Origin: a virus
Length of the DNA: 53,852 nt
Virus record (IMG/VR): IMGVR_UViG_3300001679_000055
Coordinates: 1-53,852 of that record
Direction: 5' to 3' (one strand)
The translations under genes and the position numbers were made by a program. The notes below the pieces were generated by a model. The model was not told the DNA's origin. It was given only the letters and a program-made list of their open reading frames with translations, and searched no databases. This document shows positions 13,490-34,976 of the stretch, piece after piece (positions within the stretch are counted from its first letter, which is position 1; each line of letters opens with the position of its first letter).

Positions 13490-13505
13490 AAGCGAAGTCT
13501 CGCTT
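13490..13505 (+). promoter_or_regulatory. Candidate vRNAP hairpin promoter P-E1
   Basis: A perfect 6-base inverted repeat (AAGCGA / TCGCTT) with loop AGTC, followed by AACAGGCA, 40 bases before the 13546 gene. The same loop and inner stem (GCGAAGTCTCGC) and the following CAGGCA recur at 13983 before the next early gene. N4 virion polymerase recognises promoters as small template-strand hairpins a few bases before the start site. Sequence recurrence plus position support this; loop size differs from N4's 3 bases. Confidence 0.6.
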
Positions 13506-13545
13506 AACAGGCAATTTTGTCATTTAATTTAAGGATATATATATT

Positions 13546-13848
13546 ATGAGCGACGCTATCAATACAACAGATACAACTAAAACTAAAATGCAATCAGTAA
13601 AGTTTCCTTTCCGTATGTACAACAAGAACACTATGGAATGGGACGCTATTGCTTACGGTAATATCCCTGAGTCTGGTACATCTCTAGATCATTTCAAGAT
13701 GTTCGAAGGGTGGTTACAGCAGGCTATCGATGGTGGTGCTATCTTAATCGATGAGGCTAAACTGAAGGAGCTGGGTATTCCGAATATCAAACTTACAGCA
13801 GAGTCACTATTTCAAAAGACTGAACGCCTATCCAACGCATACATCTAA
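13546..13848 (+). CDS. Early protein, hypothetical
   Basis: A 100-residue acidic soluble protein, the first plus-strand gene. It has no recognised motif; MFEGWLQQAIDGGAILIDEAKLKELG looks helical. A ribosome site (AAGGA) lies about 10 bases upstream of the ATG. It has its own hairpin promoter candidate before it and a strong terminator after it, so it is probably a separately expressed, abundant immediate-early protein. Confidence 0.8.
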   Translation: MSDAINTTDTTKTKMQSVKFPFRMYNKNTMEWDAIAYGNIPESGTSLDHFKMFEGWLQQAIDGGAILIDEAKLKELGIPNIKLTAESLFQKTERLSNAYI

Positions 13849-13864
13849 CCTAAACATTAACCTT

Positions 13865-13909
13865 GCTATACCTTCATCCCATATCGGGTGTTGGTGTAGC
13901 TCTTTTTTT
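13865..13909 (+). terminator. Rho-independent terminator after first early gene
   Basis: The stem GCTATACC (13865-13872) pairs with GGTGTAGC (13893-13900), with one G-U pair. Inside it CCC pairs with GGG, and a run of seven T follows (13903-13909). It would stop the first early transcript 17 bases after the 13848 stop codon. Confidence 0.8.
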
Positions 13910-13982
13910 GACACAGACACAGGTCAACGGCCACCAGACAGTAACCAACCAAAGCCAGCAAATATTCAGTTCACCGTGCCCT

Positions 13983-13998
13983 ACGCGAAGTCTCGCGT
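13983..13998 (+). promoter_or_regulatory. Candidate vRNAP hairpin promoter P-E2
   Basis: A perfect 6-base inverted repeat (ACGCGA / TCGCGT) with loop AGTC, followed by TTCAGGCA, 49 bases before the 14047 gene. The loop, inner stem and downstream CAGGCA are shared with the element at 13490, while outer stem bases covary (AA/TT versus AC/GT), which indicates that the pairing itself is conserved. Confidence 0.65.
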
Positions 13999-14046
13999 TT
14001 CAGGCATATTCATCTTGTATATGTTAATTAAAATAAGGTAAACATC

Positions 14047-14304
14047 ATGAAAGTAATCAGCAATATTAGTAACACTATAGGGGCATTAGCTCAAGCAACA
14101 CAGTCAGCCGCAATGCTTATTGAAAAAGTAGTAGGTGATAATGGGTTAGGTAGATTCGTAGACCAAATATCAGAAATGTCAGCAGAAGGTTTAGACGAAA
14201 ATTTAGAAGATATGCGACTAGACAGACAAGAACGTCAAATTGAAAGAACTCATAGAATCGCAGAACTTAAAGAAAAATTCAAGGTAGATACAAATGTCGA
14301 ATAA
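14047..14304 (+). CDS. Early protein with charged helical C-terminus
   Basis: An 85-residue protein. The N-terminal 35 residues are Ala/Ser/Ile rich and amphipathic; residues 45-80 are a highly charged helix (LEDMRLDRQERQIERTHRIA). No family was recognised. ATG at 14047 with AAGGTAA upstream. It overlaps the next membrane micro-gene, which begins inside its last four codons. Confidence 0.75.
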   Translation: MKVISNISNTIGALAQATQSAAMLIEKVVGDNGLGRFVDQISEMSAEGLDENLEDMRLDRQERQIERTHRIAELKEKFKVDTNVE

Positions 14305-14392
14305 CACTAAAGCATTCTTAGAAGTACTAATCGATACCATTACCTTTGCCATAATAGCTATAGGTTTCATCTTGTTAATTACTGCCATCTGA
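14294..14392 (+). CDS. 32-residue membrane micro-protein
   Basis: The frame starts at ATG 14294, inside the end of the preceding gene, and codes for 32 residues. Residues about 14-32 (ITFAIIAIGFILLITAI) form a single membrane helix; the N-terminus is polar. Overlapping placement suggests translational coupling. An early membrane role (for example in exclusion) is possible but not shown by sequence. Confidence 0.55.
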   Translation: MSNNTKAFLEVLIDTITFAIIAIGFILLITAI

Positions 14393-14479
14393 TCAACTCT
14401 TACATGTACCTAGTTGGGTATGTGTTGGACTTTTTACCTTGTGATAGTAGACAGAAAACTATACAAACGATAACACCCT

Positions 14480-14490
14480 CATTTATTTAA
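14480..14490 (+). promoter_or_regulatory. Possible middle (RNAPII) promoter core
   Basis: CATTTATTTAA lies about 70 bases before the 14560 gene. A near-identical core, CATTTATTTT, is at 15001-15010 before the RNA polymerase gene, and CATTTAATTT is at 13521-13530. N4 RNAPII promoters are AT-rich, but the match here rests only on recurrence upstream of genes. Confidence 0.3.
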
Positions 14491-14559
14491 ACCGAGTATT
14501 CACAGAAGCTACCCTGTGACTATTCTTTCATTCCAGGTAGCATTAAAACGGAGAATATT

Positions 14560-14964
14560 ATGGGCTTACTAGCTATTAATAACACAGAAACAACTAAAGC
14601 TTACAACAACGATAAAGTAATCTACATCAAGATTACTGGTCAAGAGAAGTCAGCACAATTTAAACCAAGTAAGGCATTTGAGAACATTGTATCTAACGCA
14701 GACGTGTTGAAGATTATTACTAAGGGTGACATTCGTCCTACTAAAGCTAATGACAAGGGTTATGTTAACTTTGTACTAGGTAATGGTACTAATCAATTTG
14801 GTTTCATTAATTACTTAGAAAACTCTCTAGGTAATGACTCAACTGATGATGATAAGACAGAAGCTTTATTCGCTGTAGAGGCTAAGCTATCACAAGTAAC
14901 TCTTGATGATATCAGCAGACCACTAACTGCAGATGAAGCACGTAACGCACTAGACATGCTGTAA
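14560..14964 (+). CDS. Conserved-looking hypothetical protein before RNA polymerase
   Basis: A 134-residue soluble protein with a mixed alpha/beta pattern (KVIYIKITGQEKSAQFKPSK, then GYVNFVLGNGTNQFGFINYL). It is separated from the RNA polymerase gene by a hairpin with T-rich tail, so it may be made in excess over the polymerase. N4 RNAPII needs a small partner that binds single-stranded DNA (gp2); this protein is one candidate by position, with no motif to prove it. Confidence 0.75.
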   Translation: MGLLAINNTETTKAYNNDKVIYIKITGQEKSAQFKPSKAFENIVSNADVLKIITKGDIRPTKANDKGYVNFVLGNGTNQFGFINYLENSLGNDSTDDDKTEALFAVEAKLSQVTLDDISRPLTADEARNALDML

Positions 14965-14980
14965 TACAACTATACATGGG

Positions 14981-15009
14981 TACATCAGAAATGATGTATT
15001 CATTTATTT
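14981..15009 (+). terminator. Hairpin with T-rich tail before RNA polymerase gene
   Basis: A perfect 7-base stem TACATCA / TGATGTA with a GAAA tetraloop (14981-14998), then a T-rich tail. It lies between the 14964 stop and the polymerase gene, suggesting (partial) termination that lowers polymerase expression. Confidence 0.6.
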
Positions 15010-15051
15010 TTTAATATATCTAAAACTATAAACAATTCTTGGGAATACATT

Positions 15052-16833
15052 ATGAACTTTCAATTACACAACGAGTTAGAATACTCAAAGAGACAACGTA
15101 ACAACTTAATACTGTTAGACATATTAGATGAAGTGCCTACTGAGGTTACTGATCATCTTACCAATGCTATTGATACCTATAGATCTGGAGAATACTATGC
15201 CTCTAAGCAAACTAGAGTACGTAACCTACCTAATACTATGGAGATCGTAAGTAAGATCTTAGCTATTGTTTTATCTAATGATAGTAAGCAACCCATTCAA
15301 GGCCCAGCTACTGAATTAGGTTTGTCTATGGGGTATAGGAACCCAGTAGATGCTGTTAAGACTGGTGCTGAAATATTAGCTATTGTACATGGTAGTCTAT
15401 TTGACATCTCTATGCACTCTGAAGGAACTGACATACTTCCTAAATTAAAGTTAGATGACAATACTATGGATAAGTTAAAAGTATTACAATTCCTGCCACC
15501 TATGCTGCAAGAACCTGAAGACTGGGTCTCTAACGTCCAAGGAGGGTGGTTGTGGGAACGTAAATCAATTATCTTAGGCAAAGGTAATCATCATGAAGAG
15601 TATCAGTCGTATGACGCTGTTAATCTAATGCAGATGGTACCTTGGACTATCGATATACCTACGTACATTAATCATGATAATCCTAATGAGAATATGGATA
15701 GAGATCAATACAACCGTGTCATTACAGACAACCTAGGTAAACCATTCTACTTTGTATGGCGATTTGATAAACGTGGGAGGAGTTATTCTTCAGGTTATGA
15801 CTTAAATATTCAATCTAATGAGTATGGTAAAGCTATGTTGTCGCTAACTAACAAACGCCCTGTTAACAAGGTTGATAACCTTAAGATTGCTGTTGCAAAT
15901 CATGCTGGACATGATAAGTTAACTTGGCAAGGACGTATTGACTGGTTTAATAAACAGTTAAGCTTTGATATGGGGCAGTTTAATGAACCTATTCTTGGTG
16001 CTAAGGCATTAAGAGCTTATCATGAAGTTAAACAAGGTCATAAGACTGGTTACGTTATGTCTATTGATGCTACTGCCTCTGGTTTACAGATAATGAGTGC
16101 ATTATCAGGCTGTAAAGATACTGCTAGAGTTTGTAACATGATCGATACAGGTGATAGAGAAGATGTTTACCAAATGATAGCTGATAGAATGAACAAACGC
16201 TTGAATAGTAGAGACTCAGTCAGTAGGAACATGGTTAAGAAGCCTACCATGACAACATTTTATAACTCTAAAGCTAATCCTAAGCAGGTGTTTAATGAGG
16301 AACAGTTAGAGGCATTTTATGTTACGTTAGATGGGTTAATGCCAGGTGCTATGCATATTATGGAGGATATCAATACATGTTGGCAATATGATAGTGATTT
16401 TCATCAGTGGACATTGCCTGATACACACGTAGCACGTGTACCAGTTACTGAAATGGTTGATATTAGGGTAGAAATCGATGAGTTAGACCATAGAACGTTT
16501 ACCTATCGGTATAACAAGCAACAACCTAGTGAGAACTATAGAAGTTTAGTTGCTAATATCATTCACAGTGTAGATGGGTATGTTGCTAGGGAGATGGTTA
16601 GACGAAATCATTATGAAGGTACTGAATTAGTACATATTCATGACTGTTTTGTATTTACACCAGATGCTATGCAAGATGTAGCTAGACATTACAGAGAAAT
16701 ACTAGCTGAAATAGCTGATAGTAATTTACTAGAAGACATTTTGTCTGAAGTCACGGGGACTAAGTTAACCATAAATAAGATGTCTAGTGATCTTTCTAAA
16801 GATATCCTAAACAGTCAATACATGCTATCTTAA
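15052..16833 (+). CDS. T7-like DNA-directed RNA polymerase (RNAPII), single chain
   Basis: A 593-residue single-subunit polymerase that should transcribe middle genes. Motifs in order: D/TxxGR as FDKRGRSY (Asp239 to Arg243); motif A as SIDATASGLQ with catalytic Asp339; motif B with Arg392, Lys396 and Tyr404 (R-x3-K-x7-Y); motif C as HIHDCF with His530 and catalytic Asp531. The Tyr of motif B is followed by Asn, where T7 has Gly. In N4 this enzyme is split into gp15 and gp16 (about 670 residues in sum); here all motifs are in one frame with no stop. Start ATG at 15052; a GGGAA lies 7 bases upstream. A T-rich terminator follows. Confidence 0.93.
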   Translation: MNFQLHNELEYSKRQRNNLILLDILDEVPTEVTDHLTNAIDTYRSGEYYASKQTRVRNLPNTMEIVSKILAIVLSNDSKQPIQGPATELGLSMGYRNPVDAVKTGAEILAIVHGSLFDISMHSEGTDILPKLKLDDNTMDKLKVLQFLPPMLQEPEDWVSNVQGGWLWERKSIILGKGNHHEEYQSYDAVNLMQMVPWTIDIPTYINHDNPNENMDRDQYNRVITDNLGKPFYFVWRFDKRGRSYSSGYDLNIQSNEYGKAMLSLTNKRPVNKVDNLKIAVANHAGHDKLTWQGRIDWFNKQLSFDMGQFNEPILGAKALRAYHEVKQGHKTGYVMSIDATASGLQIMSALSGCKDTARVCNMIDTGDREDVYQMIADRMNKRLNSRDSVSRNMVKKPTMTTFYNSKANPKQVFNEEQLEAFYVTLDGLMPGAMHIMEDINTCWQYDSDFHQWTLPDTHVARVPVTEMVDIRVEIDELDHRTFTYRYNKQQPSENYRSLVANIIHSVDGYVAREMVRRNHYEGTELVHIHDCFVFTPDAMQDVARHYREILAEIADSNLLEDILSEVTGTKLTINKMSSDLSKDILNSQYMLS

Positions 16834-16876
16834 AATATATAATCAAGTTGAACCACAAGTAAAGTTATAATAGACG

Positions 16877-16908
16877 TGCCCATTACGGGTATTTCTATTA
16901 TTTTTTTT
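16877..16908 (+). terminator. Terminator after RNA polymerase gene
   Basis: A short stem TGCCC / GGGTA (16877-16881 with 16887-16891) with a 5-base loop, followed by TTTCTATTA and a run of eight T (16901-16908). It ends the RNA polymerase transcript. The sequence CCCATTACGGG resembles the inner part of the terminator at 13880 (CCCATATCGGG). Confidence 0.6.
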
Positions 16909-16931
16909 ACTGTTTTTTTTACTATCTTAAA

Positions 16932-16944
16932 CGTCCTCCGGACG
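16932..16944 (+). promoter_or_regulatory. Candidate vRNAP hairpin promoter with TCC loop (P-E3)
   Basis: CGTCC - TCC - GGACG: a 5-base stem with a 3-base loop, 84 bases before the 17029 gene. On the template strand the loop reads GGA, the same shape and loop reported for N4 early promoters. The same TCC loop is at 21305 and 34958. A CTTTTTT run follows, so a second reading as an intrinsic terminator is possible. Confidence 0.5.
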
Positions 16945-17028
16945 CTTTTTTAAATGTATTAGAACTGTTTATTAAATCCAGGATTAATACAGATAACACT
17001 GGGGTTGACTTAAGGAGAACACTAAAAA

Positions 17029-17223
17029 ATGGAAAACAAATTTCATATAGTAAATTGCCAACTAAAAGGATGTCACCATAATAGAAAAAGTATTTGTCGA
17101 TTAGATACTTTACCAATTATGGGATTCGCGGACAGTATGCAATTTTTTAGAGATAGTAAGACGTGTCAAGTAAGACATCAGATAAGTATTCACCGAACAG
17201 AACAATTAATAGGAAAAGATTAA
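17029..17223 (+). CDS. Small four-Cys protein, paralogue of the 19306 gene
   Basis: A 64-residue protein with Cys at positions 10, 15, 23 and 47, spaced as a possible zinc knuckle (NCQLKGC, then SICRLDTLPI). The 75-residue protein at 19306 shares the C-x4-C-x(6-7)-C-x(4)-LPI pattern and the ending RT-x-x-LI-G, so the two are duplicates. It has a strong ribosome site (AAGGAG) 12 bases before ATG. The stop shares a base with the helicase start (TAATG). Confidence 0.75.
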   Translation: MENKFHIVNCQLKGCHHNRKSICRLDTLPIMGFADSMQFFRDSKTCQVRHQISIHRTEQLIGKD

Positions 17224-18623
17224 TGGATTTAAGTAGATTATCAGGGGTTACTTCCCCAAAAATTGTACTAACTAGTAAACAGCAAGCTATCGTAGATAGT
17301 AAAGCTAAAGCTATACTTGTAAACGCTGTGGCAGGTAGTGGTAAGACCGCTACTTTAATGGAATTAGCAAAGAATTATAATAACGGACTATACATAGCCT
17401 TTAACAAAGCTATTGTTACTGATGTAATTGATAAGCTTCCTATTGGTTGGAGTTGTAAAACCTTCAATGCACTAGGATTAGCTATTACAAGGCAACATCT
17501 ATTGAATGCTAAAGTAGATTTTAGTAAATATAGACAAAAAGGTAGTACATACAGTAAATCTTGTGATTTAGCAGTTCACCATATGAGTATGAATGGTGCA
17601 CCTACACAAGATTCTTGGGAAGTTACAGCTAAAAGATTTTCAATACCTAAGTTACATATTAGAGAGGCTTCCAGTATATTAACTGAAGGTAAAGCTGACA
17701 CTAGTGCAATTAGTGGAGAGGATATGCTTCAATACCCAATTGATAATGGTTGGAAAACTGATCATTATGATATTGTTCTAGTAGATGAGTGCCAAGATCT
17801 TAACCCACAGCAAATAGCATTTTTAGCCTGTATTCCTACTGAGAAAATTGTGTTTGTAGGTGATAGAAATCAAGCTATATATGGCTTTAGAGGTAGTGAT
17901 CCTAAAGCATTAACTAAGATCGTTGATGATTACCAGCCTGTTGAATTCGAGATGTCTGAAAGCTTCAGATGTCCTACTGCTGTTGTTGAAAGAGTTAATC
18001 ACGTAGCTCCTAGAATGATGAGTAGTAAAGTAGGTGGGCAAATAGAACGTATTAGTTACGATGATGCCATCTATGATGATGAATGTTTTATTTTGAGCAG
18101 GAGTAATGGCAAACTTATCTCACTAGCTTATAGCTTCATGAAAACTAATAAACATTTCTCTATTGGAACTAACTTTATTAAACAATTAGAACGTGATTTA
18201 AATCCTCATTTAAAAAACGCTACGAATCTGCAACAAGTACATGATAGAGTAATACAAACGTTTAAGCTTGCGCTCAACAAAGCTCAACAAAATAACTGGT
18301 CAACTATAACACTGGATAATAAGTATCAAGCTTTATTAGAATTGATAACCACTGTAGACACTCTACAAGAGGTTAAACTTTTTGCTAATTCATTAAAGAT
18401 GCATACTGATGGTGCTAGTGAACGAAAGCTTATGACTATTCACGCAGCTAAAGGCTTAGAAACTGATCATGTTTACTTTTTAGAACCCGACATGATAGAA
18501 TTTATGAAAAGAAAAGCTACGGATCAGTGGCAACGACAAGAAGAGGATAATCTCTACTATGTTGCATGTACTAGATCCTTATCTAAATTGACATTCATAC
18601 AAAAGAACTCATGGAGAAATTAG
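17223..18623 (+). CDS. Superfamily 1 DNA helicase (UvrD/Dda-like)
   Basis: A 466-residue helicase. Start chosen at ATG 17223, with AGGA eight bases upstream and TAATG coupling to the preceding gene; an upstream in-frame start at 17163 lies within that gene. Motifs: Walker A AGSGKT (residues 37-42), DExx motif VDECQD (Asp188, Glu189), motif III FVGDRNQAIYGFRG, motif V TIHAAKGLE and motif VI YVACTRS. It unwinds DNA with ATP, probably in replication or recombination. It is shorter than UvrD (about 720) and close to phage Dda-type helicases. Confidence 0.92.
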   Translation: MDLSRLSGVTSPKIVLTSKQQAIVDSKAKAILVNAVAGSGKTATLMELAKNYNNGLYIAFNKAIVTDVIDKLPIGWSCKTFNALGLAITRQHLLNAKVDFSKYRQKGSTYSKSCDLAVHHMSMNGAPTQDSWEVTAKRFSIPKLHIREASSILTEGKADTSAISGEDMLQYPIDNGWKTDHYDIVLVDECQDLNPQQIAFLACIPTEKIVFVGDRNQAIYGFRGSDPKALTKIVDDYQPVEFEMSESFRCPTAVVERVNHVAPRMMSSKVGGQIERISYDDAIYDDECFILSRSNGKLISLAYSFMKTNKHFSIGTNFIKQLERDLNPHLKNATNLQQVHDRVIQTFKLALNKAQQNNWSTITLDNKYQALLELITTVDTLQEVKLFANSLKMHTDGASERKLMTIHAAKGLETDHVYFLEPDMIEFMKRKATDQWQRQEEDNLYYVACTRSLSKLTFIQKNSWRN

Positions 18624-18865
18624 CATTTAAAGACATAGTTAAAGACATGCTGGTTTTAGTTAAGATACCTAATGAAGATACTTTATTTTTGTCTAGGGTA
18701 GTAGAAACATCTCTTGGACACCCATCTATACCTAAATTAAGATTAGGTACTGGACACTCTGTTATCTATGGGCAGTCCTGGATTATTTATGCTAATAATA
18801 ATGTTAATCGTACAGAGGTACTATTAACCCAAACGACAATTCAAGAAAACCCAACAATGCTCTAA
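18611..18865 (+). CDS. Hypothetical protein overlapping helicase end
   Basis: An 84-residue, beta-rich soluble protein with no recognised family. The ATG at 18611 overlaps the helicase end by 13 bases, which suggests coupled translation. It is followed by a strong AGGAGG site for the next gene. Confidence 0.7.
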   Translation: MEKLAFKDIVKDMLVLVKIPNEDTLFLSRVVETSLGHPSIPKLRLGTGHSVIYGQSWIIYANNNVNRTEVLLTQTTIQENPTML

Positions 18866-18873
18866 GGAGGCTT

Positions 18874-19089
18874 ATGAACGACCTAAATGAAATATTATTA
18901 CTAAAAAGTGTGTGTCAATACATTGATGTAAAAGGAAATATCTACCCTATGGATGACAGTGGTAATATTGATGACATGTCTATTTCAACTATAGGAAATA
19001 TCTCAAATGCACCATTAGATTGGTGGAAAGAATTATCAAATTACGATACAAAATTAGCAGACATTCTTTATGGAGGCCTCATGCAATGA
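18874..19089 (+). CDS. Small acidic protein, paralogue of the 19888 gene
   Basis: A 71-residue acidic protein. It shares with the 71-residue protein at 19888 the segments KS-x-x-x-YID, D/NS-GNI-D/E-D and DWW-x-x-LS-x-YD-x-KLADI-x-YG, so the two are clear duplicates that have diverged. The family has an invariant-looking C-terminal DWW...KLADI block. Function unknown. ATG at 18874 with AGGAGG seven bases upstream. Confidence 0.8.
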   Translation: MNDLNEILLLKSVCQYIDVKGNIYPMDDSGNIDDMSISTIGNISNAPLDWWKELSNYDTKLADILYGGLMQ

Positions 19090-19199
19090 TATGTAACTGT
19101 GGCTGCATAATGCTAAAACGTGCACATTTTTGGGAATGTCCTACTAAACCTTTCGGAGAACCTGGAGGGTGTGGACGAGTTGAATTTTTCAAGTTGTAA
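19086..19199 (+). CDS. 37-residue Cys-rich micro-protein
   Basis: A short frame starting at ATG 19086, overlapping the stop of the preceding gene (ATGA). It codes for 37 residues beginning MICNCGCIMLKRAHFWECP, with Cys at 3, 5, 7, 18 and 29 and a Gly-rich end (EPGGCGRVEFFKL). The Cys and aromatic pattern suggests a mini zinc ribbon. Start overlap and Cys pattern support it; no homologue is recalled. Confidence 0.6.
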   Translation: MICNCGCIMLKRAHFWECPTKPFGEPGGCGRVEFFKL

Positions 19200-19210
19200 A
19201 AATATTTTAA

Positions 19211-19287
19211 GCCCCTTTAGCTCAGTTGGTTAGAGCATCCGACTCATAATCGGCAGGTCGTTAGTTCAAGTCTAACAAGGGGCACCA
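19211..19287 (+). tRNA. tRNA with CAU anticodon, probably tRNA-Ile2
   Basis: A full cloverleaf of 77 bases with an encoded CCA end. Acceptor GCCCCTT / AAGGGGC, D stem GCTC/GAGC, anticodon loop CTCATAA (anticodon CAT), variable AGGTC, T arm GTTAG-TTCAAGT-CTAAC, discriminator A. The lowest anticodon-stem pair is T27-C43, a mismatch. The body (CGACTCATAATCG, then GGTCG and TTCAAGTC) is closer to the E. coli minor isoleucine tRNA (CAU, lysidine-modified, reads AUA) than to elongator Met. AUA-rich phage genes would profit from it. Confidence 0.9.
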
Positions 19288-19305
19288 AATTAAATAGGAA
19301 ATATA

Positions 19306-19533
19306 ATGGAACATTTTGATATTGCTTCATGTAAAGATGAAGCATGTATAAATTATATTAGTGGTACTTGTGTTTTAAATAAATTACCAATAATACGCTG
19401 GGTATGGGCAGATGAAGCTCTTGGAGGAGCTAGAAGGTTTCAACTACCTACTACTACTGGTAATTGCGCAGCACAACCACAAGTTAATGTATTTCGCACA
19501 CATAAGCTAATTGAAGGTACCACTCATGGGTAG
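19306..19533 (+). CDS. Small four-Cys protein, paralogue of the 17029 gene
   Basis: A 75-residue protein with Cys at 9, 14, 22 and near 53, in the same layout as the 17029 protein (C-x4-C-x7-C-x4-LPI, later RTHKLIEG). It starts 18 bases after the tRNA, with AGGAAA upstream. A small metal-binding role is likely; no partner is known. The stop overlaps the start of the next gene by 8 bases. Confidence 0.75.
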   Translation: MEHFDIASCKDEACINYISGTCVLNKLPIIRWVWADEALGGARRFQLPTTTGNCAAQPQVNVFRTHKLIEGTTHG

Positions 19534-19885
19534 ATATTATCAAGGTGATATTGAAGGTAAGTTCTGGTTCGGAGTACAAAACTCAGATGACGGTGAATTC
19601 TTCGGAGCTAAAGAGCTACAAAGTACTCTAATTGACTATGAAATCAATGTCAATGATGTACAGGTAGTTAAAGAAGGAATTATGATGTGTAAGAAACGGT
19701 TAAGACACGCTCTACTAGAGTATGACCCTGATGTGGGCTTCAAGCCATCTTTTTGGAAGCATCTAACTGGAGAAGAACAACGTTATTATTCTGAATGGAT
19801 GGCTAGACTAGAAATGGGTATGAAAATACTCATATTTTTTAACGACAATCCCGACAATGATTGTTACTTTACTGCGGAGACATAG
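19526..19885 (+). CDS. Uncharacterised small protein (GRYYxGDIEGKFWF family)
   Basis: A 119-residue protein beginning MGRYYQGDIEGKFWFGVQNS, a start I recall from uncharacterised small phage and bacterial proteins. It is acidic, with Trp/Tyr-rich centre (FWKHLTGEEQRYYSEWMARL). Start chosen at ATG 19526 rather than the in-frame TTG at 19511; AAGG lies 8 bases upstream. Function unknown. Confidence 0.75.
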   Translation: MGRYYQGDIEGKFWFGVQNSDDGEFFGAKELQSTLIDYEINVNDVQVVKEGIMMCKKRLRHALLEYDPDVGFKPSFWKHLTGEEQRYYSEWMARLEMGMKILIFFNDNPDNDCYFTAET

Positions 19886-19887
19886 AT

Positions 19888-20247: not shown

Positions 20248-20255
20248 GGAGAAAT

Positions 20256-21297: not shown

Positions 21298-21304
21298 CTT
21301 AAAA

Positions 21305-21319
21305 GTGGTCTCCGACCAC
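21305..21319 (+). promoter_or_regulatory. Candidate vRNAP hairpin promoter with TCC loop (P-E4)
   Basis: GTGGTC - TCC - GACCAC: a perfect 6-base stem with 3-base loop, 36 bases before the 21355 gene, between two plus-strand genes. It is not followed by a T-run, so it is not an intrinsic terminator. The template-strand loop GGA equals that of N4 early promoters. Confidence 0.65.
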
Positions 21320-21354
21320 CTATATGAATGATTACATAATCCAAGGAGATTAAT

Positions 21355-21762
21355 ATGCCAACAGGCAAAAGACTAACGCTGAAACAGCGTGCAGAAATAA
21401 TGGAAGTTTACAAAACAGGAAACTTAACTCAATCAGAAATTGCTAGCTTAGTAGACCTAGGAATCTCTACAGTTAGTAGAGTTATTGCACAAGAGCAAGG
21501 ATTTAAACCCATGCCTGAACCTAGGAAACTAAAAACTAAGTTTAAAACCACAGTATCTATAGCTGCAACAAATGCAGATCATGCTAAAGTAGCTGCGTAT
21601 GCTAAGCTACATGATTTGGCTATGCATAATGCTCTACATATCATGTTGAGTGATAGTGCCCATACCAACCTAATAAATACTATTCAACGTGAAGTTGAAA
21701 TTATGGTATCAGCAGCTAAGACTGAAGTTGCGATCATTAAAAAGAAATGGTGGCATCTATGA
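21355..21762 (+). CDS. Helix-turn-helix DNA-binding regulator
   Basis: A 135-residue protein with an N-terminal helix-turn-helix (residues about 8-45: LTLKQRAEIMEVYKTGNLTQ then SEIASLVDLGISTVSRV) like that of transposase/resolvase-type HTH. The remainder is Ala/His-rich helix. It has AAGGAG upstream of ATG and its own hairpin promoter candidate, so it is a likely early regulator. It overlaps the next gene by ATGA. Confidence 0.75.
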   Translation: MPTGKRLTLKQRAEIMEVYKTGNLTQSEIASLVDLGISTVSRVIAQEQGFKPMPEPRKLKTKFKTTVSIAATNADHAKVAAYAKLHDLAMHNALHIMLSDSAHTNLINTIQREVEIMVSAAKTEVAIIKKKWWHL

Positions 21763-27579: not shown

Positions 27580-27581
27580 AC

Positions 27582-27788: not shown

Positions 27789-28771
27789 TGGCTTTTACAT
27801 ACACAAACAACAGTAATGTCAGTCTTCCATTAGCCGTATGGTTAATGCATGATGACTATGACTACGATAGTAGACCTAATGTAATTAGCGCTACATCATT
27901 ATTAAAACCCACTAGAGCATTAGTCCTCAAACGTCAGAACGCAGGGTTAGATAAGTCAGTAGATATCACAGATTTAGTTAGCGCTCGTATGGGATCAGCT
28001 ATTCATGCTATTGCTGAAGAAGCATGGTTAAATAAAGATAATATTAAGAAAGCCTTATCAGCTATGGGAACGTCGAACTTATTTGATAAGTTTGTTATTA
28101 ACTCTGACACACCAGTAAGTGGAGACCAAATTCCTGTATACATAGAACAACGCCATGAAACTGCCGTAGACGATTACATCATCTCAGGTAAATATGACCT
28201 TGTACTAGATGGCACTATCTCAGATTATAAGAGTACGTCTGTATGGACATATATCTATGATTCTAATGCTCTTAAGTACACCCAACAGGGCAGTATATAC
28301 AAGTGGTTAGCTCCAGATAGAATTACCGATAACAAGATCAGTATTCAATTTATTTTTACAGATTGGTCAGGTGCTAATGCTAAAAGAGACTCTAAATACC
28401 CTCAATCACGCGTTCTAACTAAAGATTACCCATTATGGTCTGTTGAACAAACGGATAAGTTTATTAAAGATAAGCTTAAGTTAATTTCTGAGTTGAAATC
28501 GCTGCCACAGGATGCACTTCCTGAATGCACTTCCGAAGAGTTATGGGAATCTCAAACTAAGTATAAATATTTTAAGAATCCTACCAAAATGACGAGAGCA
28601 ACTAAAAACTTTGACACTATGGACGAAGCAAGCGCTAGATTATCAGCTGATGGAAATATTGGTGTAATTCAAACTGTGCGTGGAGAAGTTAAAGCATGCC
28701 GCTACTGTGAAGTAGTAGACATTTGTACACAAGCAAAAAATTTACAAGCACAAGGGAGACTAGTATTATGA
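27788..28771 (+). CDS. PD-(D/E)XK (Cas4/RecB-like) nuclease
   Basis: A 327-residue protein. Motif ISGKYDLVLDGTISDYKS is the usual PD-(D/E)XK core (Asp ... D-Y-K), preceded by a helical segment with RMGSAIHAIAE, where the His fits motif I of RecB-like nucleases. Near the C-terminus ACRYCEVVDIC gives three Cys, as in Cas4/AddB Fe-S sites, but the fourth is not clear. It probably trims or resects DNA ends in replication or recombination. It overlaps the next gene by ATGA. Confidence 0.8.
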   Translation: MAFTYTNNSNVSLPLAVWLMHDDYDYDSRPNVISATSLLKPTRALVLKRQNAGLDKSVDITDLVSARMGSAIHAIAEEAWLNKDNIKKALSAMGTSNLFDKFVINSDTPVSGDQIPVYIEQRHETAVDDYIISGKYDLVLDGTISDYKSTSVWTYIYDSNALKYTQQGSIYKWLAPDRITDNKISIQFIFTDWSGANAKRDSKYPQSRVLTKDYPLWSVEQTDKFIKDKLKLISELKSLPQDALPECTSEELWESQTKYKYFKNPTKMTRATKNFDTMDEASARLSADGNIGVIQTVRGEVKACRYCEVVDICTQAKNLQAQGRLVL

Positions 28772-29145
28772 ATTTAGACGCTAAATTACTAAAACATCTA
28801 GCTATATTTTGTGAAAATGTTGCATTAGATATTGATGCACATCTAAATACTCCTAAAAGCACAGTTATCATACCTTCAGATAAACTAGGTACCACTATAG
28901 CCACACTAAAAAGTATGACTAAAGAAAAACCTAAAATTAAAACTAAACGTAAGAGACGAGATACAACTCGACTCACAGTCAAGCAATGTGCTCTAGTTAA
29001 ACAAATGCGTAAAGCTAATCCTCATTTATTTGATGATCAATTCGGTGAAAGGATGAATCAAGAATTCGGTCTTAGTAAATCAACAACTACCTGGCGTAAT
29101 GTTGTATCAAGAAATACTGAATATTTTAAATCACTAGACTACTAA
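28768..29145 (+). CDS. Hypothetical basic protein
   Basis: A 125-residue protein. The middle is very basic (KTKRKRRDTTRL), and the C-terminal half could be a DNA-binding helix-turn-helix (MNQEFGLSKSTTTWRNVVS). Start chosen at ATG 28768, overlapping the nuclease stop. Possibly a DNA-binding accessory of replication; no family was recognised. Confidence 0.65.
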   Translation: MNLDAKLLKHLAIFCENVALDIDAHLNTPKSTVIIPSDKLGTTIATLKSMTKEKPKIKTKRKRRDTTRLTVKQCALVKQMRKANPHLFDDQFGERMNQEFGLSKSTTTWRNVVSRNTEYFKSLDY

Positions 29146-29148
29146 ATT

Positions 29149-31299
29149 ATGGACGATCCTAAATATAATAAATTATCTGAAGAGATAGTCGATATTCTTG
29201 TCGCTAAAACTCAGTCGCAGAATAGACACTTCTTCCGAATTTTAGTAGCATACTATCTTTCAAAAGTAGCATCTATGATGCGTTGTAACATTGAAACTAA
29301 AGATAGAGGTGTCATCCCAGTTAATACCTATGTATTAAACTTAATGCCCTCTGGAGCTGGTAAGGGTTTTTCAACTAACATTATTGAAGAAGATATTATT
29401 GAGGGTTTCAGATTAAACTTTTTGACACATATCTTGCCTGAAGAAAGTGCTAATGAGTTATCTATATTAGCTAATTTAAGAGCTGCTAGAGATCCTGAAT
29501 TGTCACAAGAAGAGGCTATGACAGATGTGCAAAAAGAATATGACGCACTCGGCAATCTAGCATTCAGTTTTGATAGTGGAACATCCCCAGCTGTAAAGCA
29601 GATGAGACAAAAATTGCTTATGTCTAATTGTGGATCTATGAATCTAGAATTGGATGAGGTAGGGTCTAACCTAACTAACAATGCTGAAATGCTAAATACC
29701 TTTTTAGAACTTTATGATGTAGGTAAAGTTAAACAGAAATTAACAAAGAATACTGCTGATAATAAGCGTGGGGAAGAGCTTACAGGTAGAACTCCTACCA
29801 ACATGATGTTATTTGGTACTCCTACTAAATTACTTGATGGTAGTCGAGTAGAAGACGAATTCAAACAAATGCTGGAAACGGGCTATGCTCGTAGAATGTT
29901 ATTTGGCTATGACACCACAGTCAATAATGTACACCAGCAAACAGCTGAAGAGTTGTATGATGCCTTAACTAATACCAATGTATCTAAAGATACTTTACGT
30001 ATTGAAAGTCTCATAACTAATCTTGCAGACAGGGCTAAGTTTAATACTGTGCTTACTATGAGTAAGGTAGATACCATACACTTACTGCAATATAAAATAA
30101 CCTGCGAAAGTTTATCCAGAGATCTTAAACCTCATGAAGAAACCCAGAAGGCTGAACTCGCACACAGATACTATAAAGCTTTAAAGTTAGCAGGAGCTTA
30201 TGCTTTTGCTGAAGGATCCTCTGTAATTGCTAAGGAACATCTAGACAGTGCTATACAACTAGTCGAAGACTCAGGTGAGCATTTCAAACGCATTATGTGT
30301 AAAGAAGGGCCTTATGCTAGATTAGCTAGATACATTGCTGATGTGGGGCGTGAGATTACTCAAGTTGATCTTGTAGAGGAACTGCCATTTTATAAAGGGC
30401 AGGAATCCCAAAAGAAAGAAATGTTGAAACTGGCAATTGCGTATGGGTATAAGAATAATATTATTATTCGTAAAACCTACGTGGATGACATTGAGTTCTT
30501 ATCAGGAGAAGCTCTACAAGAGACTGACCTAGATAACGTACATGTTAGTTATAGTACTGATATCACTACAGGTTACGTTGAGGGTGTTGGTGCGTTTAGC
30601 GCATTAAATAACCTAGTATGTACTACAGGACACCATTACACAGCTCACAACTTCTTAGATGGTTACAGATCATCAGAGAAAGCTATTCCAGGCTTTGACC
30701 TACTAATCTTAGACATTGATAGCGGTACAAGCGTTAATACAGCTATGGAGCTGTTAAGCGACTTCACAGCGATGTACGCAACTACAAAACGACACACTGA
30801 AGATAAGCACCGATTTAGAGTTATATTGCCTATGTCTCACTACATTAAGTTAAGTCCTAAGGACTATTCAAAATTTATGGAGAATGTGTTTAATTGGTTA
30901 CCTTTCGAAACTGACACAGCTACTAAAGATATTGCACGTAAGTGGATGTCCCATAATGGAGAATGTCACTTCAACACAGGTGAATTAATTGATGCTACGT
31001 TATTTATACCTCAGACTAAAAAAGCTATGGAGCAGGAAAAGATCCTGTTAGATGCTAAAGGTATGGATAATATGGAAAGGTGGTTTGCTTCACGTATTGA
31101 AGTAGGCAACAGAGCCACTATGGTTATCCGTTATGGTTTTATGTTGGTAGATAATGAACTACCTCTAGACTTTATTATGTCTAAGCTTCATGGCTTTAAT
31201 GATAAGTTACCTGATCCATTGACCAGGGAAGAACTAGACACAAAGATACAAATCTCAATATCGAGAAAGATGATTCAAAAGGAGAGTATGCATGAATAA
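29149..31299 (+). CDS. Primase/ATPase (N4 gp43 type)
   Basis: A 716-residue protein, the size of N4 gp43. An N-terminal ATPase of DUF3987 style has a Walker A-like PSGAGKG (residues 67-73). The C-terminal part shows archaeo-eukaryotic primase-type marks: LILDIDSG (Asp522, Asp524) and KHRFRVILP (His554). So one protein may prime synthesis and drive a helicase-like ATPase. It starts 4 bases after the preceding gene and overlaps the RecA-like gene by 8 bases. Confidence 0.82.
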   Translation: MDDPKYNKLSEEIVDILVAKTQSQNRHFFRILVAYYLSKVASMMRCNIETKDRGVIPVNTYVLNLMPSGAGKGFSTNIIEEDIIEGFRLNFLTHILPEESANELSILANLRAARDPELSQEEAMTDVQKEYDALGNLAFSFDSGTSPAVKQMRQKLLMSNCGSMNLELDEVGSNLTNNAEMLNTFLELYDVGKVKQKLTKNTADNKRGEELTGRTPTNMMLFGTPTKLLDGSRVEDEFKQMLETGYARRMLFGYDTTVNNVHQQTAEELYDALTNTNVSKDTLRIESLITNLADRAKFNTVLTMSKVDTIHLLQYKITCESLSRDLKPHEETQKAELAHRYYKALKLAGAYAFAEGSSVIAKEHLDSAIQLVEDSGEHFKRIMCKEGPYARLARYIADVGREITQVDLVEELPFYKGQESQKKEMLKLAIAYGYKNNIIIRKTYVDDIEFLSGEALQETDLDNVHVSYSTDITTGYVEGVGAFSALNNLVCTTGHHYTAHNFLDGYRSSEKAIPGFDLLILDIDSGTSVNTAMELLSDFTAMYATTKRHTEDKHRFRVILPMSHYIKLSPKDYSKFMENVFNWLPFETDTATKDIARKWMSHNGECHFNTGELIDATLFIPQTKKAMEQEKILLDAKGMDNMERWFASRIEVGNRATMVIRYGFMLVDNELPLDFIMSKLHGFNDKLPDPLTREELDTKIQISISRKMIQKESMHE

Positions 31300-32011
31300 C
31301 AACCTAGTATTGTTATGCGGTAAATCCGCAACAGGAAAATCAGCCAGTTTGGTTGATATCAAAAACCCAAAAGGGGTAATGTACTTAAATTGTGAAAACA
31401 ATAAGAAGTTACCTTTCAACTCTAAATTTCAAGAATATACAATTACGGATCCTACAGATGTGCCTGATGCTATTGACTCAGTACAAGATAATGGTGACAT
31501 TCACACTATCGTCATCGATAGTTTGACATACCTAATGGATATGTTTGAAAGTACCAAAGTGCTAACTTCATCTAATACGATGAAAGCCTGGGGTAGCTAT
31601 GCCCAGTTCTTAAAGAATCTGATGGCACAAAATGTAGCCAACTCTAACAAGAACATCATTTTCATTGCACATACATCAGATGTATTTAATGAATCTGAAA
31701 TGGTAAATGAAACTATGGTTAAAGTTAAAGGTTCTTTAATGAACACAGGTATTGAGAGCTTTTTTAGTACGGTGATCGCATGTAAGAAATTACCTTTAAA
31801 AAGTATTGAAGATTCTAAATCTAAAATGCTCAAGGTTAACGATGAAGAGGAGTTACTTGGATTTAAATACGTGTATCAGACACGTCTAACAAAAGACACT
31901 GTAAATGAGCGTATTAGAAGTCCTATGCGTATGTGGGGTATTGAAGAAACCTATGTTGATAATAACTTACAGCATGTGCTAGATAAATTACACACTTACT
32001 ACGATGCCTAG
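31292..32011 (+). CDS. RecA/AAA-like ATPase (N4 gp44 type)
   Basis: A 239-residue ATPase with Walker A GKSATGKS (residues 10-17) and Walker B TIVIDSLTY. The pattern resembles Sak4/AAA_24 single-strand annealing or recombination ATPases found in phages. N4 gp44 holds this place between primase and SSB. It overlaps both neighbours by 8 bases. Confidence 0.82.
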   Translation: MNNNLVLLCGKSATGKSASLVDIKNPKGVMYLNCENNKKLPFNSKFQEYTITDPTDVPDAIDSVQDNGDIHTIVIDSLTYLMDMFESTKVLTSSNTMKAWGSYAQFLKNLMAQNVANSNKNIIFIAHTSDVFNESEMVNETMVKVKGSLMNTGIESFFSTVIACKKLPLKSIEDSKSKMLKVNDEEELLGFKYVYQTRLTKDTVNERIRSPMRMWGIEETYVDNNLQHVLDKLHTYYDA

Positions 32012-32204
32012 AGCATTAAACAAAAAACAGAAGCAAATACTTAATAGGTATAACTACTGTACTCACGAAAGTGATCTCCCTAAAGACGTTTTAGGTCAAA
32101 TAATTGACTTAAACAACTATGATGAGGTGTACATGGATGTAACAAGGTATTTATATGATACTTACGTACAACTGAATGGTACACCTCTCAAAAAACACTC
32201 GTGA
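32004..32204 (+). CDS. Small hypothetical protein after gp44-like gene
   Basis: A 66-residue basic protein, ATG at 32004 overlapping the preceding gene by 8 bases. N-terminal KKQKQILNRYNYC is basic; the rest is helical and acidic. Probably part of the replication operon; function unknown. Confidence 0.7.
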   Translation: MPRALNKKQKQILNRYNYCTHESDLPKDVLGQIIDLNNYDEVYMDVTRYLYDTYVQLNGTPLKKHS

Positions 32205-32332
32205 AGGGGTGTAGGTGTTTATGTGTAAGCACATGGTTTAGCCTGTAATCTCTGGGAGGGTATTACGAAGTAAACTTAAGAGGCATGTCATAGGTATGGA
32301 CATTAACTTACCTACCAAATTACGGAGAAAAA
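32205..32332 (+). other. Non-coding leader with small hairpins
   Basis: 128 bases without a gene. ATGTG-TAAG-CACAT forms a hairpin (32221-32234) and ATGTC / GACAT another (32285-32303). The sequence CTGGGAGGGTATT here resembles TTGGGAGGGTTTA at 34538-34551 in the structured region before SSB. It may be an RNA leader or a promoter region for the 32333 gene. Confidence 0.4.
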
Positions 32333-32494
32333 ATGAACGATACTAAACTAGTAACAATCAAAACTTTAGTTGAGATGTTGGATAAAAACACACCTGAACT
32401 AAATTGCACACTAATAGCTGTGGTAGATAAAGAAGGACGTCATATAGAGTCTCCAGACAGTATCGAAGCAGTAATACAATTTGAGAATAAATAA
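32333..32494 (+). CDS. 53-residue hypothetical protein
   Basis: A short frame, ATG at 32333 with CGGAGA upstream, coding for 53 residues with a helix, a beta strand CTLIAVVDKEG, and an acidic end. The stop shares a base with the ATG of the next gene (TAATG). Function unknown. Confidence 0.65.
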   Translation: MNDTKLVTIKTLVEMLDKNTPELNCTLIAVVDKEGRHIESPDSIEAVIQFENK

Positions 32495-32790
32495 TGTTAA
32501 AACATATGTTAGAAAATGCCGCACAGACGTGGCGGAAAAAACAACTAATTAGAGCTGAGGTAGCTTCAGCTATAGGTGAATATAACCTTTCTGAAACAGC
32601 TGAAGACATTTACATATTTGCAGCAGCTAGTAAAGCAAATATTTCAAATATACGTCAGCACAGTTATTTTGCTAATAAGTCCCACTCAACCATTAAACGA
32701 GCAGTTATTGAGCTAAAAACTCATAACTTATTGAAATCCGTAGAAGATACAATAGACAGGCGTGTTCAGTGGTTAATCCCTACTGATTAG
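32494..32790 (+). CDS. Winged-helix-like small regulator
   Basis: A 98-residue protein. Residues about 45-90 look like a winged helix: ISNIRQHSYFANKSHSTIKR, then AVIELKTHNLL and a wing. Possible transcription regulator in the middle region. ATG at 32494 by TAATG coupling. Confidence 0.65.
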   Translation: MLKHMLENAAQTWRKKQLIRAEVASAIGEYNLSETAEDIYIFAAASKANISNIRQHSYFANKSHSTIKRAVIELKTHNLLKSVEDTIDRRVQWLIPTD

Positions 32791-32794
32791 TTTT

Positions 32795-33205
32795 ATGGGA
32801 AACAGGAAAATAAGAGACTACGTACTTTCAGATGGATCTATAACTAATGCTCCTAAGGTCGCAGCCAAAGCTAATTTACACATAACCACAGCAAGGTGTC
32901 GACTAGCCAGAACAGACGATCCTAAATTGATTTACGCTGCTAAAAGCGAGAACAATAAAAAAGGTAAGTTTAAATCCTACATTCTAGATGATGGTAGTGT
33001 TTGGACCATTCCTGAGATCGTAAAAAAAGCAGGCATAACTAAGCAATGTGCAGCGGCTAGATTACATGTGTCTAAGGACGCAGCAAAGGTATTACGCCCA
33101 AAAGTATTTGTGGAAGGTGAATCTTCTAAAATAGCCAGTAGGGCCATCACACGCCGTATGTACTTTGACCCAGATGGTTTTTGGAAGATATTTAACAGAA
33201 TTTAG
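32795..33205 (+). CDS. Protein with duplicated HTH-like unit
   Basis: A 136-residue basic protein with an internal repeat: YVLSDGSITNAPKVAAKANL (residues 8-27), and YILDDGSVWTIPEIVKKAGI (about residues 55-74), each followed by a second helix. Each copy looks like a small DNA-binding unit that begins with a D-G-S turn. Similar DGS-start units occur in phage DNA-binding proteins. ATG at 32795, 4 bases after the preceding gene. Confidence 0.7.
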   Translation: MGNRKIRDYVLSDGSITNAPKVAAKANLHITTARCRLARTDDPKLIYAAKSENNKKGKFKSYILDDGSVWTIPEIVKKAGITKQCAAARLHVSKDAAKVLRPKVFVEGESSKIASRAITRRMYFDPDGFWKIFNRI

Positions 33206-33339
33206 TAAGAATGAGGGCAACGGGGGAAGTCCCACTGATGAAGCAGCCTTAAACTAATTATCCAAATACTACGGTTTGGGTGTTAATGAAAGATAACTAC
33301 TGTGAAGATCCCAACTAATTATTTATAACAAAGGTAAAA

Positions 33340-33663
33340 ATGAAAAATAAGATTAAAGAGTTTTTTACGAGTGAACCTGACTATGACCTAAGATGGTTAT
33401 TTATTACTGTTGTGTTACTGGTACTAATTACCTTAAGCACTAAATCAAAAGCTTATGAACCATTCCCCGCTGATGTTATAACCATGGATGTCACTAAATC
33501 ATATGGTGGCGGTGGTACTTTTTTATGTCCTACTGTACGAGATTGTTTTGTATACACACGCTACGCAGAGCAACGCGGTGCTAATCAGTACTGTGAGTCA
33601 GTTGTTATTAAACGTAATGGTGTAGTCGTTTGGTCAAAATATTTTTACAAAAACAAATACTAA
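33340..33663 (+). CDS. Membrane-anchored periplasmic protein
   Basis: A 107-residue protein. Residues 18-34 are a strong hydrophobic helix (LRWLFITVVLLVLITLS) after an acidic cytoplasmic start, followed by KSKA, which could also be a cleavage site. The outer part has three Cys and beta-prone segments. It is a candidate envelope modifier. The region 33206-33339 before it is non-coding (direct repeat AACTAATTAT at 33252 and 33313). ATG at 33340. Confidence 0.7.
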   Translation: MKNKIKEFFTSEPDYDLRWLFITVVLLVLITLSTKSKAYEPFPADVITMDVTKSYGGGGTFLCPTVRDCFVYTRYAEQRGANQYCESVVIKRNGVVVWSKYFYKNKY

Positions 33664-33800
33664 TGAGCAATCTACTAGAACTTCCTGAGGATTATTGGGA
33701 TAGACAAGCTAGACAAAATAACTTATTAGAAAAGCTGCGTAAGCTTAAGCGGGAAGAAAATGAACAAAGGCAAATTCTGTTGGCCAGACGGTACAGGTAA
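33663..33800 (+). CDS. 45-residue charged helical protein
   Basis: A short frame, ATG at 33663 by TAATG coupling, coding for 45 residues. It is a single charged helix (DRQARQNNLLEKLRKLKREE). It overlaps the next frame by 41 bases, which lowers confidence in one of the two. Confidence 0.45.
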   Translation: MSNLLELPEDYWDRQARQNNLLEKLRKLKREENEQRQILLARRYR

Positions 33801-33969
33801 ACAATATTGTATATCTGCAGAAGATATGTTTGATGAGGATGTAGGAATTATTCTTGCAGACGTTTGGGAAGAAGAGTATCCTATTCAAGATAGCTTAAAA
33901 ATTCTTGAGGAGATTACCAATAATGAAAGTAGTATTTCATGTAACACCTGTACCAGCAGCAAGACCTAG
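33760..33969 (+). CDS. 69-residue acidic hypothetical protein
   Basis: A 69-residue acidic protein, ATG at 33760 with GGGAAG upstream. It overlaps both neighbours (41 and 47 bases), which is unusual in this genome. The sequence (CWPDGTGKQYCISAEDMFDE) looks like a folded protein. The overlap with RusA is out of frame. Confidence 0.5.
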   Translation: MNKGKFCWPDGTGKQYCISAEDMFDEDVGIILADVWEEEYPIQDSLKILEEITNNESSISCNTCTSSKT

Positions 33970-34315
33970 AGTGACTAGATGGTCTACCTTCTACCCAAAG
34001 AAATATACAGAATTCAAAGCAGCTATGGAAATAGCTAAAAGTGATATACATTGTGTACCTTTAGAGAACAACGTATACGCTAAATTAGACTTCTTTGTTA
34101 AGATCCCTATGTCGTGGTCTAAAAAGAAAAAAGAGTCGAAACTGGGTAAATATTGTGATAATAATGCAGATATTGATAATTACTGTAAAGCCATAATGGA
34201 TTCCTTAAACGGGAAATATTATTTAGATGACAGGCAGGTAGTAATGTTACGTGCCCGTATGTTTTGGTCTAACACCCCAAGAATCCAATGTGAGTTTTTA
34301 CCAATACAAGAGTAG
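33923..34315 (+). CDS. rusA: RusA-type Holliday junction resolvase
   Basis: A 130-residue endonuclease. It carries the RusA signature NADIDNYCKAIMDSLNG and YYLDDRQV, in which the three catalytic Asp of the family lie; the N-terminal PVPAARPRVTRW is also typical. It would resolve branched replication intermediates before packaging. Start chosen at ATG 33923 with GAGGAG 11 bases upstream, rather than an in-frame start at 33905. Confidence 0.9.
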   Translation: MKVVFHVTPVPAARPRVTRWSTFYPKKYTEFKAAMEIAKSDIHCVPLENNVYAKLDFFVKIPMSWSKKKKESKLGKYCDNNADIDNYCKAIMDSLNGKYYLDDRQVVMLRARMFWSNTPRIQCEFLPIQE

Positions 34316-34318
34316 ATT

Positions 34319-34510
34319 ATGAAAAACTTATCTAGAGAAGAATTATGCGAAGCACTAGCTGAAGACTATGCAGATAGAGCAGCAAAAGGTGGAAACGATT
34401 ACACTAAGTCATACGTACATTACTTAGAAAGGTGTTTATTACGCAAAACTACAGATTTACTACAACAATATAAAGTACAAGGATTACATAATTTAGGCTT
34501 TATATTTTAA
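34319..34510 (+). CDS. Small hypothetical protein after rusA
   Basis: A 63-residue helical protein (REELCEALAEDYADRAAKGG), ATG at 34319 three bases after the rusA stop. The family is not recognised. It is the last clear gene before the structured region upstream of SSB. Confidence 0.65.
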   Translation: MKNLSREELCEALAEDYADRAAKGGNDYTKSYVHYLERCLLRKTTDLLQQYKVQGLHNLGFIF

Positions 34511-34517
34511 ATTCGGT

Positions 34518-34976
34518 ATGTAGATGGTGAAACGTCTTTGGGAGGGTTTACTCTTGAGGAATAGAGCCCACCTACATGCTGAGAATGTTAACACATTAGT
34601 TGAAGATGAATACGCCATCTCTAGCCCGAAGACTAAACTTCCTAGGGCCAGGTTCATAAGACGGTAAAGGTTGCTACCGTGCGTATAAGTAACCACTTAA
34701 GCCAAGGTTCCGAGTGGATTACTTTCATTTACACTCTCCCACCTTAATGAAGGTTCGTATGTTTCCTAAGATGCTGTAAAACATACCCCCCTTTCTTTTA
34801 ACTCTCAGGAGCATAAAGCAAAGTTGACGGCCTGGCTCACTCCGATATGGAGCCTCTAATTTAAGAACACATAAGTACGTCGGTCCTGTTGGCCAACTCC
34901 TTGTTAAGAGCTAGTTTGAGAGTACTAGTGTGTACAAACTCTCACCAAACTATAACTAAGGGTTCTCCGAACCCTT
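34518..34976 (+). ncRNA. Candidate structured non-coding RNA before SSB
   Basis: A 459-base stretch with no convincing gene but many stems: 34518-34527 with 34568-34577 (9 of 10 paired); ACGGTA / TACCGT at 34661-34680; AAGGT / ACCTT enclosing GAGTG / CACTC at 34704-34745; GTATGTTT / AAACATAC at 34757-34786; GGCTC / GAGCC at 34834-34854; the palindrome GTTGGCCAAC at 34888; TGAGAGT / ACTCTCA at 34917-34944; and a final 8-base stem with TCC loop at 34958-34976. A 47-codon ATG frame at 34524-34667 lacks a ribosome site. Density of stems suggests an RNA gene or long leader. No known RNA family was recognised. Confidence 0.5.
34958..34976 (+). promoter_or_regulatory. Candidate vRNAP hairpin promoter with TCC loop before SSB (P-E5)
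   Basis: AAGGGTTC - TCC - GAACCCTT: a perfect 8-base stem with 3-base loop, 88 bases before the SSB ATG. No T-run follows, so it is not a standard terminator. The loop equals those at 16937 and 21311. If active, SSB would be made from entry onward by the virion polymerase. Confidence 0.6.

Follow-up and report, generated by a model that had tools for sequence, protein, structure and literature searches.

Two classes of small-loop DNA hairpin, candidate promoters of early and middle genes, in an uncultured N4-like phage

Five hairpins upstream of rightward genes

The stretch of DNA analysed here, referred to as the window, is the 53,852-base IMG/VR virus record IMGVR_UViG_3300001679_000055, which has the gene order of phage N4 and belongs to an uncultured N4-like (Schitoviridae-type) phage. 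Its late genes run leftward (36203-53559 and 267-13041), its early and middle genes run rightward (13546-36201), and it encodes an N4-type RNAPII, a primase, an N4-type single-stranded DNA-binding protein (SSB) and a giant virion RNA polymerase (vRNAP). A BLAST search of tested stretches of the window against isolate phages gave no DNA-level match, and uncultured relatives were therefore used for comparison; the RNAPII is less than 60% identical to that of any isolate. The subject of this study is a set of five small-loop hairpins on the plus strand, which fall into two classes, A with the loop AGTC and B with the loop TCC. The hairpins and the genes and signals around them are as follows.

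13490-13505 (element to 13511), plus strand: class A hairpin A1, AAGCGA-AGTC-TCGCTT, spacer AACA, proposed start GG at 13510-13511
13546-13848, plus strand: early gene 1, 100 amino acids, no family
13983-13998 (element to 14004), plus strand: class A hairpin A2, ACGCGA-AGTC-TCGCGT, spacer TTCA, proposed start GG at 14003-14004
14047-14304, plus strand: early gene 2, 85 amino acids, no family
15052-16833, plus strand: RNAPII gene, one chain of 593 amino acids
16868-16908, plus strand: Rho-independent terminator-like hairpin with a T-run, just before B1
16932-16944, plus strand: class B hairpin B1, CGTCC-TCC-GGACG, with T at +7; proposed start region +13/+14 at 16952-16953
21305-21319, plus strand: class B hairpin B2, GTGGTC-TCC-GACCAC, with RA (R, purine) at 21326-21327, upstream of a helix-turn-helix (HTH) gene at 21355-21762
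34958-34976 (element to 34982), plus strand: class B hairpin B3, AAGGGTTC-TCC-GAACCCTT, upstream of the SSB gene
35065-35778, plus strand: SSB gene (phrog_743, 2e-57); ATG 35065 is the likely true start from alignment to relatives
36203-47614, minus strand: vRNAP gene, 3803 amino acids (phrog_2206), polymerase domain at about residues 1640-2550

The two class A hairpins differ in the second stem pair, which is A-T in A1 and C-G in A2, a compensatory change. Each stem is followed by 4 nt and then by GGCA, and the stretch CAGGCA is common to both (repeat family D7). A first-pass annotation, made from the letters of the window, had already placed the AGTC hairpins at 13490 and 13983 with their compensatory pair and shared CAGGCA, as well as TCC hairpins with differing stems at 16932, 21305 and 34958, and all of these were found as described.

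The occurrence of both classes is far from random. With 2000 dinucleotide shuffles of the 2,239 bp of intergenic sequence in the rightward half as the null model, the three TCC hairpins stand against 0.0065 expected and the two AGTC hairpins (stem of at least 6 bp) against 0.001 expected; none of the shuffles reached three and two, respectively, and the antisense count of TCC hairpins was zero. The three TCC hairpins are also the only triloop hairpins with a stem of at least 5 bp and at least three G/C in those 2,239 bp. An equal frequency of such hairpins inside genes, which the first-pass annotation had named as an argument against promoters, is not the case, as neither type occurs on the sense strand within 21,303 bp of early and middle genes. 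Late genes contain two more TCC hairpins, at 5092-5108 and 43717-43729; both are on the strand opposite to the gene, and neither has the class B downstream signature described below. All five hairpins are predicted to fold as single-stranded DNA, and an Rfam search at the hairpins gave no match.

Comparison with N4 and with uncultured relatives

The N4 genome (NC_008720) was scanned as a yardstick and gave three hairpins, one with a TTC loop at 90, ahead of gene 1, and two with a TCC loop, at 557 ahead of gene 2 and at 4546 ahead of RNAPII. In all three, exactly 9 nt and then GG follow; these are taken as the promoters P1, P2 and P3. According to PMC4496689, the N4 vRNAP requires a C:G closing pair and a loop with G and A at its ends; on the template it contacts A or G at -11, G at -10, G at -8 and C at +1. 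The loops and spacing found in the scan agree with this rule. In the window, as in N4, small and perfectly paired DNA hairpins stand before gene 1, gene 2 and RNAPII, with G at the 5' end of the template loop. Class A further has a GG, the proposed start, at a fixed spacing of its own (10 nt, as against 9 nt in N4), and class B shares the template loop C-GGA-G.

For the comparison of the early region, RNAPII was used as bait to collect 34 and then 66 related loci. When these loci were aligned by position ahead of genes 1 and 2, most near relatives proved to have hairpins with a GG behind them before the first two early genes, the GG lying 8-9 nt beyond the loop. The loop itself varies from phage to phage. 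Loops ending in C and followed by 8 nt and GG upstream of RNAPII comprise 12 triloops and 14 tetraloops on the sense strand as against 2 and 1 on the antisense strand; when all spacings were counted, the peak at 8 nt appeared on the sense strand only, and at 9 nt there were 8 sense and 2 antisense triloops. Within a phage, the two or three sites mostly have one loop type in common, and the types vary among phages, with TGCC twice in each of L003, L004 and L169, TGGC twice in L171, TGAC twice in L175, TTC twice in L178, TAC in L176, TCC three times in L197 and GTC three times in L192. The tetraloop sites have the consensus C[TGNC]G with T at +5 and GG at +9/+10, which holds in 11/11 sites throughout, except for loop base 1 (10/11) and base 3, which is variable.

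Class A occupies the left-end position of the N4 early promoters, upstream of genes 1 and 2 and 1.1-1.6 kb before RNAPII. With -10 assigned to the last loop base, its template strand has G at -10, A at -11 and G at -8, so that bases contacted by vRNAP (PMC4496689) are kept. Because class A is the only hairpin class upstream of RNAPII, and because RNAPII must be early if the phage follows N4, these hairpins are best read as vRNAP early promoters, here with a 4-base loop. Several observations weigh against this reading. The search of relatives for AGTC or TCC loops that the first-pass annotation had suggested recovered TCC at conserved places, and AGTC hairpins in none of the relatives fetched, which makes class A of the window an outlier. 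The stem, with 6 bp, lies within the 5-7 bp of the N4 structural rule; the 4-nt template loop GACT and the A:T closing pair depart from the 3-nt loop and C:G pair of that rule, and of the loop ends only the 5' G is kept. The distance from loop to GG is 10 nt at both sites, one more than in N4 and compared with 8 or 9 in the relatives. Furthermore, the closest relative, L002, has no clear counterpart at gene 2, and L006/L170 has a TCC loop in a class A position. Class A of the window is an outlier in detail, but its position, within-genome pairing and GG match the set seen in relatives.

Class B is conserved in a different manner. In complete or long relative contigs, the TCC hairpins lie on the sense strand between genes, in conserved order and at three sites per genome, namely 1.8-1.9 kb after the RNAPII start, at 4.6-6.9 kb, and upstream of SSB. 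The hairpin after RNAPII is present in 15/15 distinct relatives with an RNAPII identity of at least 57% and in 3/32 more distant loci. Upstream of SSB, 16 of 34 triloops are TCC; four of these 16 have the same shorter, T-closed stem, come from LIT1-type phages and may be unrelated. The class is absent from both long genomes checked in a sister group with 46-48% RNAPII identity (G016 and G020). Among 34 aligned sites there are 24 different 6-bp stems, the loop is TCC in all 34 and the closing pair is C-G in 31; the sixth pair is Watson-Crick in 33 sites and the seventh in nine. Downstream of the loop, the sites carry a signature of their own, consisting of C at +4 (30/34), T at +7 (32/34), a purine at +13 (33/34) and A at +14 (28/34). 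A search with the class B pattern found more palindromes of this kind among distant members of the family. Several of them precede, by 27-120 nt, a gene that has a ribosome-binding site (RBS), and the genes behind these distant sites include Sak4-like genes, which precede SSB in N4-like phages.

At all three class B sites of the window, the template reads C-GGA-G, which agrees with the N4 rule in the triloop, the C:G closing pair, G at -10, a purine at -11 and A at -12. The rule is broken at -8 and +1, as the base at +2 behind the loop is never C, B3 alone has G at +10 and a GG start is absent. The class also differs from P1-P3 in having C+4, T+7 and RA at +13/+14 and in lying at middle operons up to 21 kb downstream, with B2 and B3 at about 8 and 21 kb from gene 1. 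The region from -7 to +2 around position +13 is AT-rich, as in the minimal promoter of N4 RNAPII (PMC4496689), with the proviso that the start at +13 is inferred and that these N4 promoters have no hairpin.

Predicted hairpin promoters have been reported for the Pseudomonas phages LIT1, LUZ7 and PEV2 (PMC3715699) and for Pectobacterium CB1-like phages (PMC6027278), in each case three with a 3-nt loop in the early region. The main texts of these two papers, in the parts used here, treat one early class only and do not mention later TCC sites in LIT1. In our scan, LIT1 resembles the window in having TCC hairpins after RNAP2 and before Sak4/SSB genes, and differs from it in that these sites lack the RA signature at +13/+14. 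A second conserved hairpin class at middle operons is likewise not described in the portions of PMC4496689, PMC3715699 and PMC6027278 that were used.

Candidate polymerases for the two classes

The first-pass annotation had noted that two loop classes in one phage may mean two start specificities. The comparison supports this well, as the classes differ in downstream signature, spacing and position. Two loops alone do not imply two polymerases, because both TTC (P1) and TCC (P2 and P3) loops are already found in N4, and the differences in spacing, start signature and position are the stronger evidence for two classes. That the hairpins fit virion-polymerase promoters, as also proposed there, holds in part: N4-type hairpin promoters are likely, and class B, with its GGA template loop, is not the best fit to vRNAP, as it lacks G at -8 and C at +1, occurs as far as 21 kb into the genome and serves genes of the middle region.

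From sequence and placement we infer promoter activity, start sites and the assignment of polymerases as follows. Class A hairpins would be extruded on the entering DNA, and injected vRNAP would bind the template-strand hairpin, initiate at the GG that lies some 10 nt beyond the loop, and transcribe genes 1 and 2 and on to RNAPII. The terminator after RNAPII would separate this early unit from the first class B unit. B1, B2 and B3 would each start one middle operon, with the helicase, the HTH gene through to primase, and SSB, respectively, and initiation would probably occur at the purine 13 nt after the loop. For class B the specificity would differ; RNAPII with cofactors is the most likely reader, and vRNAP in a second mode a less likely one. 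We consider it rather probable that two distinct families of DNA-hairpin promoter divide the rightward genome half in this way, A being read by vRNAP and B most likely by RNAPII.

Both polymerases were inspected. The polymerase domain of the window vRNAP was placed via intermediate relatives, as a phmmer search of the middle region against the PDB returned nothing. Equivalents of the mini-vRNAP residues R424, D559, K670, Y678 and D951 are all present, and the T7-like catalytic domain is intact; for the promoter-contact residues K114, R119, W129, D901 and R904, no confident alignment was obtained, even among known phages. In relatives, the length of vRNAP ranges from 2707 to 4506 amino acids; conservation is poor in the N-terminal part and highest in the C-terminal part. 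The RNAPII is a single chain that matches both the gp15-like and the gp16-like families of N4 (phrog_2166 at residues 3-207 and phrog_2051 at residues 272-522), whereas N4 RNAPII is a gp15/gp16 heterodimer and a 2015 review (PMC4496689) gives a heterodimer for nearly all vRNAP-bearing phages. Its structure model (predicted local distance difference test, pLDDT, 82) matches T7-like and mitochondrial RNA polymerases and N4 RNAPII (6dt7_B); these matches do not decide hairpin binding.

The reader of class B is the most delicate part of the scheme. RNAPII is favoured by the position at middle operons, the preceding terminator, the AT-rich start region and the lack of G at -8 and of GG. The middle promoters of N4 RNAPII, AT-rich from -7 to +2 according to PMC4496689, similarly serve middle genes of the left half; they differ in that no hairpin is described for them. 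Three points weigh against RNAPII. No hairpin-binding element was identified in the RNAPII model. To our knowledge, N4 RNAPII promoters do not use hairpins. Finally, the template loop C-GGA-G is exactly that of P2 and P3, which favours vRNAP. On balance, these sequence features slightly favour RNAPII over vRNAP.

The most serious alternative is that one vRNAP reads both classes, tolerating different loops, in which case class B would represent extra early or delayed-early promoters. N4 vRNAP manages two template loops (GAA at P1 and GGA at P2 and P3), accepts A or G at -11 (PMC4496689) and is the sole polymerase known to read hairpins. The features that extrusion requires, a C:G closing pair and a loop with G and A at its ends, are present in class B. 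However, such a reading has to accommodate the absence of G at -8 and of a GG at the N4 spacing from class B, its own C+4, T+7 and RA+13/+14, its location at middle genes, 2-21 kb beyond the early region, and the fact that class A loops drift between phages whereas class B stays TCC. We regard a single reader as a possibility of about one in three.

More generally, Schitoviridae-type phages may use two orthogonal hairpin codes, a fast-evolving early code for the injected vRNAP and a conserved TCC code at middle operons for RNAPII; this extension is tentative and somewhat less probable than not. If it is true, initiation at DNA hairpins is also a property of a second single-subunit polymerase, one that is not carried in the virion. 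The published model for the recognition of N4-type middle promoters invokes an unknown protein X (PMC4496689), and a conserved middle-operon hairpin with its own signature across the family is a concrete candidate for another recognition route. The early loops, which vary by phage in a constant layout, form a natural series for the change of specificity in a hairpin-reading polymerase and possibly offer orthogonal promoter pairs as tools.

Other roles of the hairpins and neighbouring elements

Class B might instead comprise RNA elements, such as terminators, processing sites or protein-binding sites in transcripts, and the intergenic location and the T-rich sequence after B1 and after several hairpins of relatives would suit such a role. 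An intrinsic terminator was rejected as an identity for class B, as B2, B3 and most relatives have no T-run and a separate terminator precedes B1. This separate terminator is strong (RNA fold of -14.3 kcal/mol) and is also found in relatives, where 25 of 158 of its pairs (16%) are G-U; the B1 stems of the same loci contain none in 13 sites. Since the class B sites and B1 stems were found by a perfect-pair search, the absence of G-T pairs is limited as evidence; the comparison nevertheless carries weight, as a perfect hairpin of this kind is present at every near-relative locus. Selection on the B1 stems thus appears to act on DNA. The lack of G-T pairs, the conserved bases at +7 and +13/+14 beyond the hairpin and the RBS and gene downstream favour a DNA-level promoter, and we judge an RNA element to be unlikely.

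It is similarly improbable that class A is a repeated structure with another role, for example in packaging or left-end replication, and that the true vRNAP promoters were missed, since the restriction of AGTC to this phage and the departures in loop size and closing pair are offset by the location upstream of both first genes, the GG spacing, counterparts of like layout in most relatives and the lack of any further hairpin upstream of gene 1 except a TGAA hairpin at 13306.

The latter hairpin (13306-13321, GAGAGC-TGAA-GCTCTC) is followed by TTGGGCGCGGGACG, and L003 and L004 have a similar hairpin and flank. Also upstream of gene 1, at 13445-13481, a block CCCCCCCTAT..N..TAACTATCTTTTTT is kept in nearly all near relatives and is perhaps related to the left genome end. 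The gene before RNAPII (14560) encodes a 134-residue protein, the relatedness of which to N4 gp2 is not detectable. Directly upstream of its RBS lies an H-type pseudoknot at 14500-14541 (stem S1 14500-14505/14514-14519, stem S2 14508-14513/14536-14541), which has no Rfam match. The leaders at 12 of the 13 loci examined contain such a pseudoknot, with stems that differ in sequence and are compensated, and the element resembles an autoregulatory mRNA leader. The middle region contains a tRNA gene at 19211-19284 (Rfam RF00005, 71.3 bits). Between hairpin B3 and the SSB start codon, the leader carries an inverted repeat, GTTGTC...GACAAC (35010-35043), which may possibly serve translational control.

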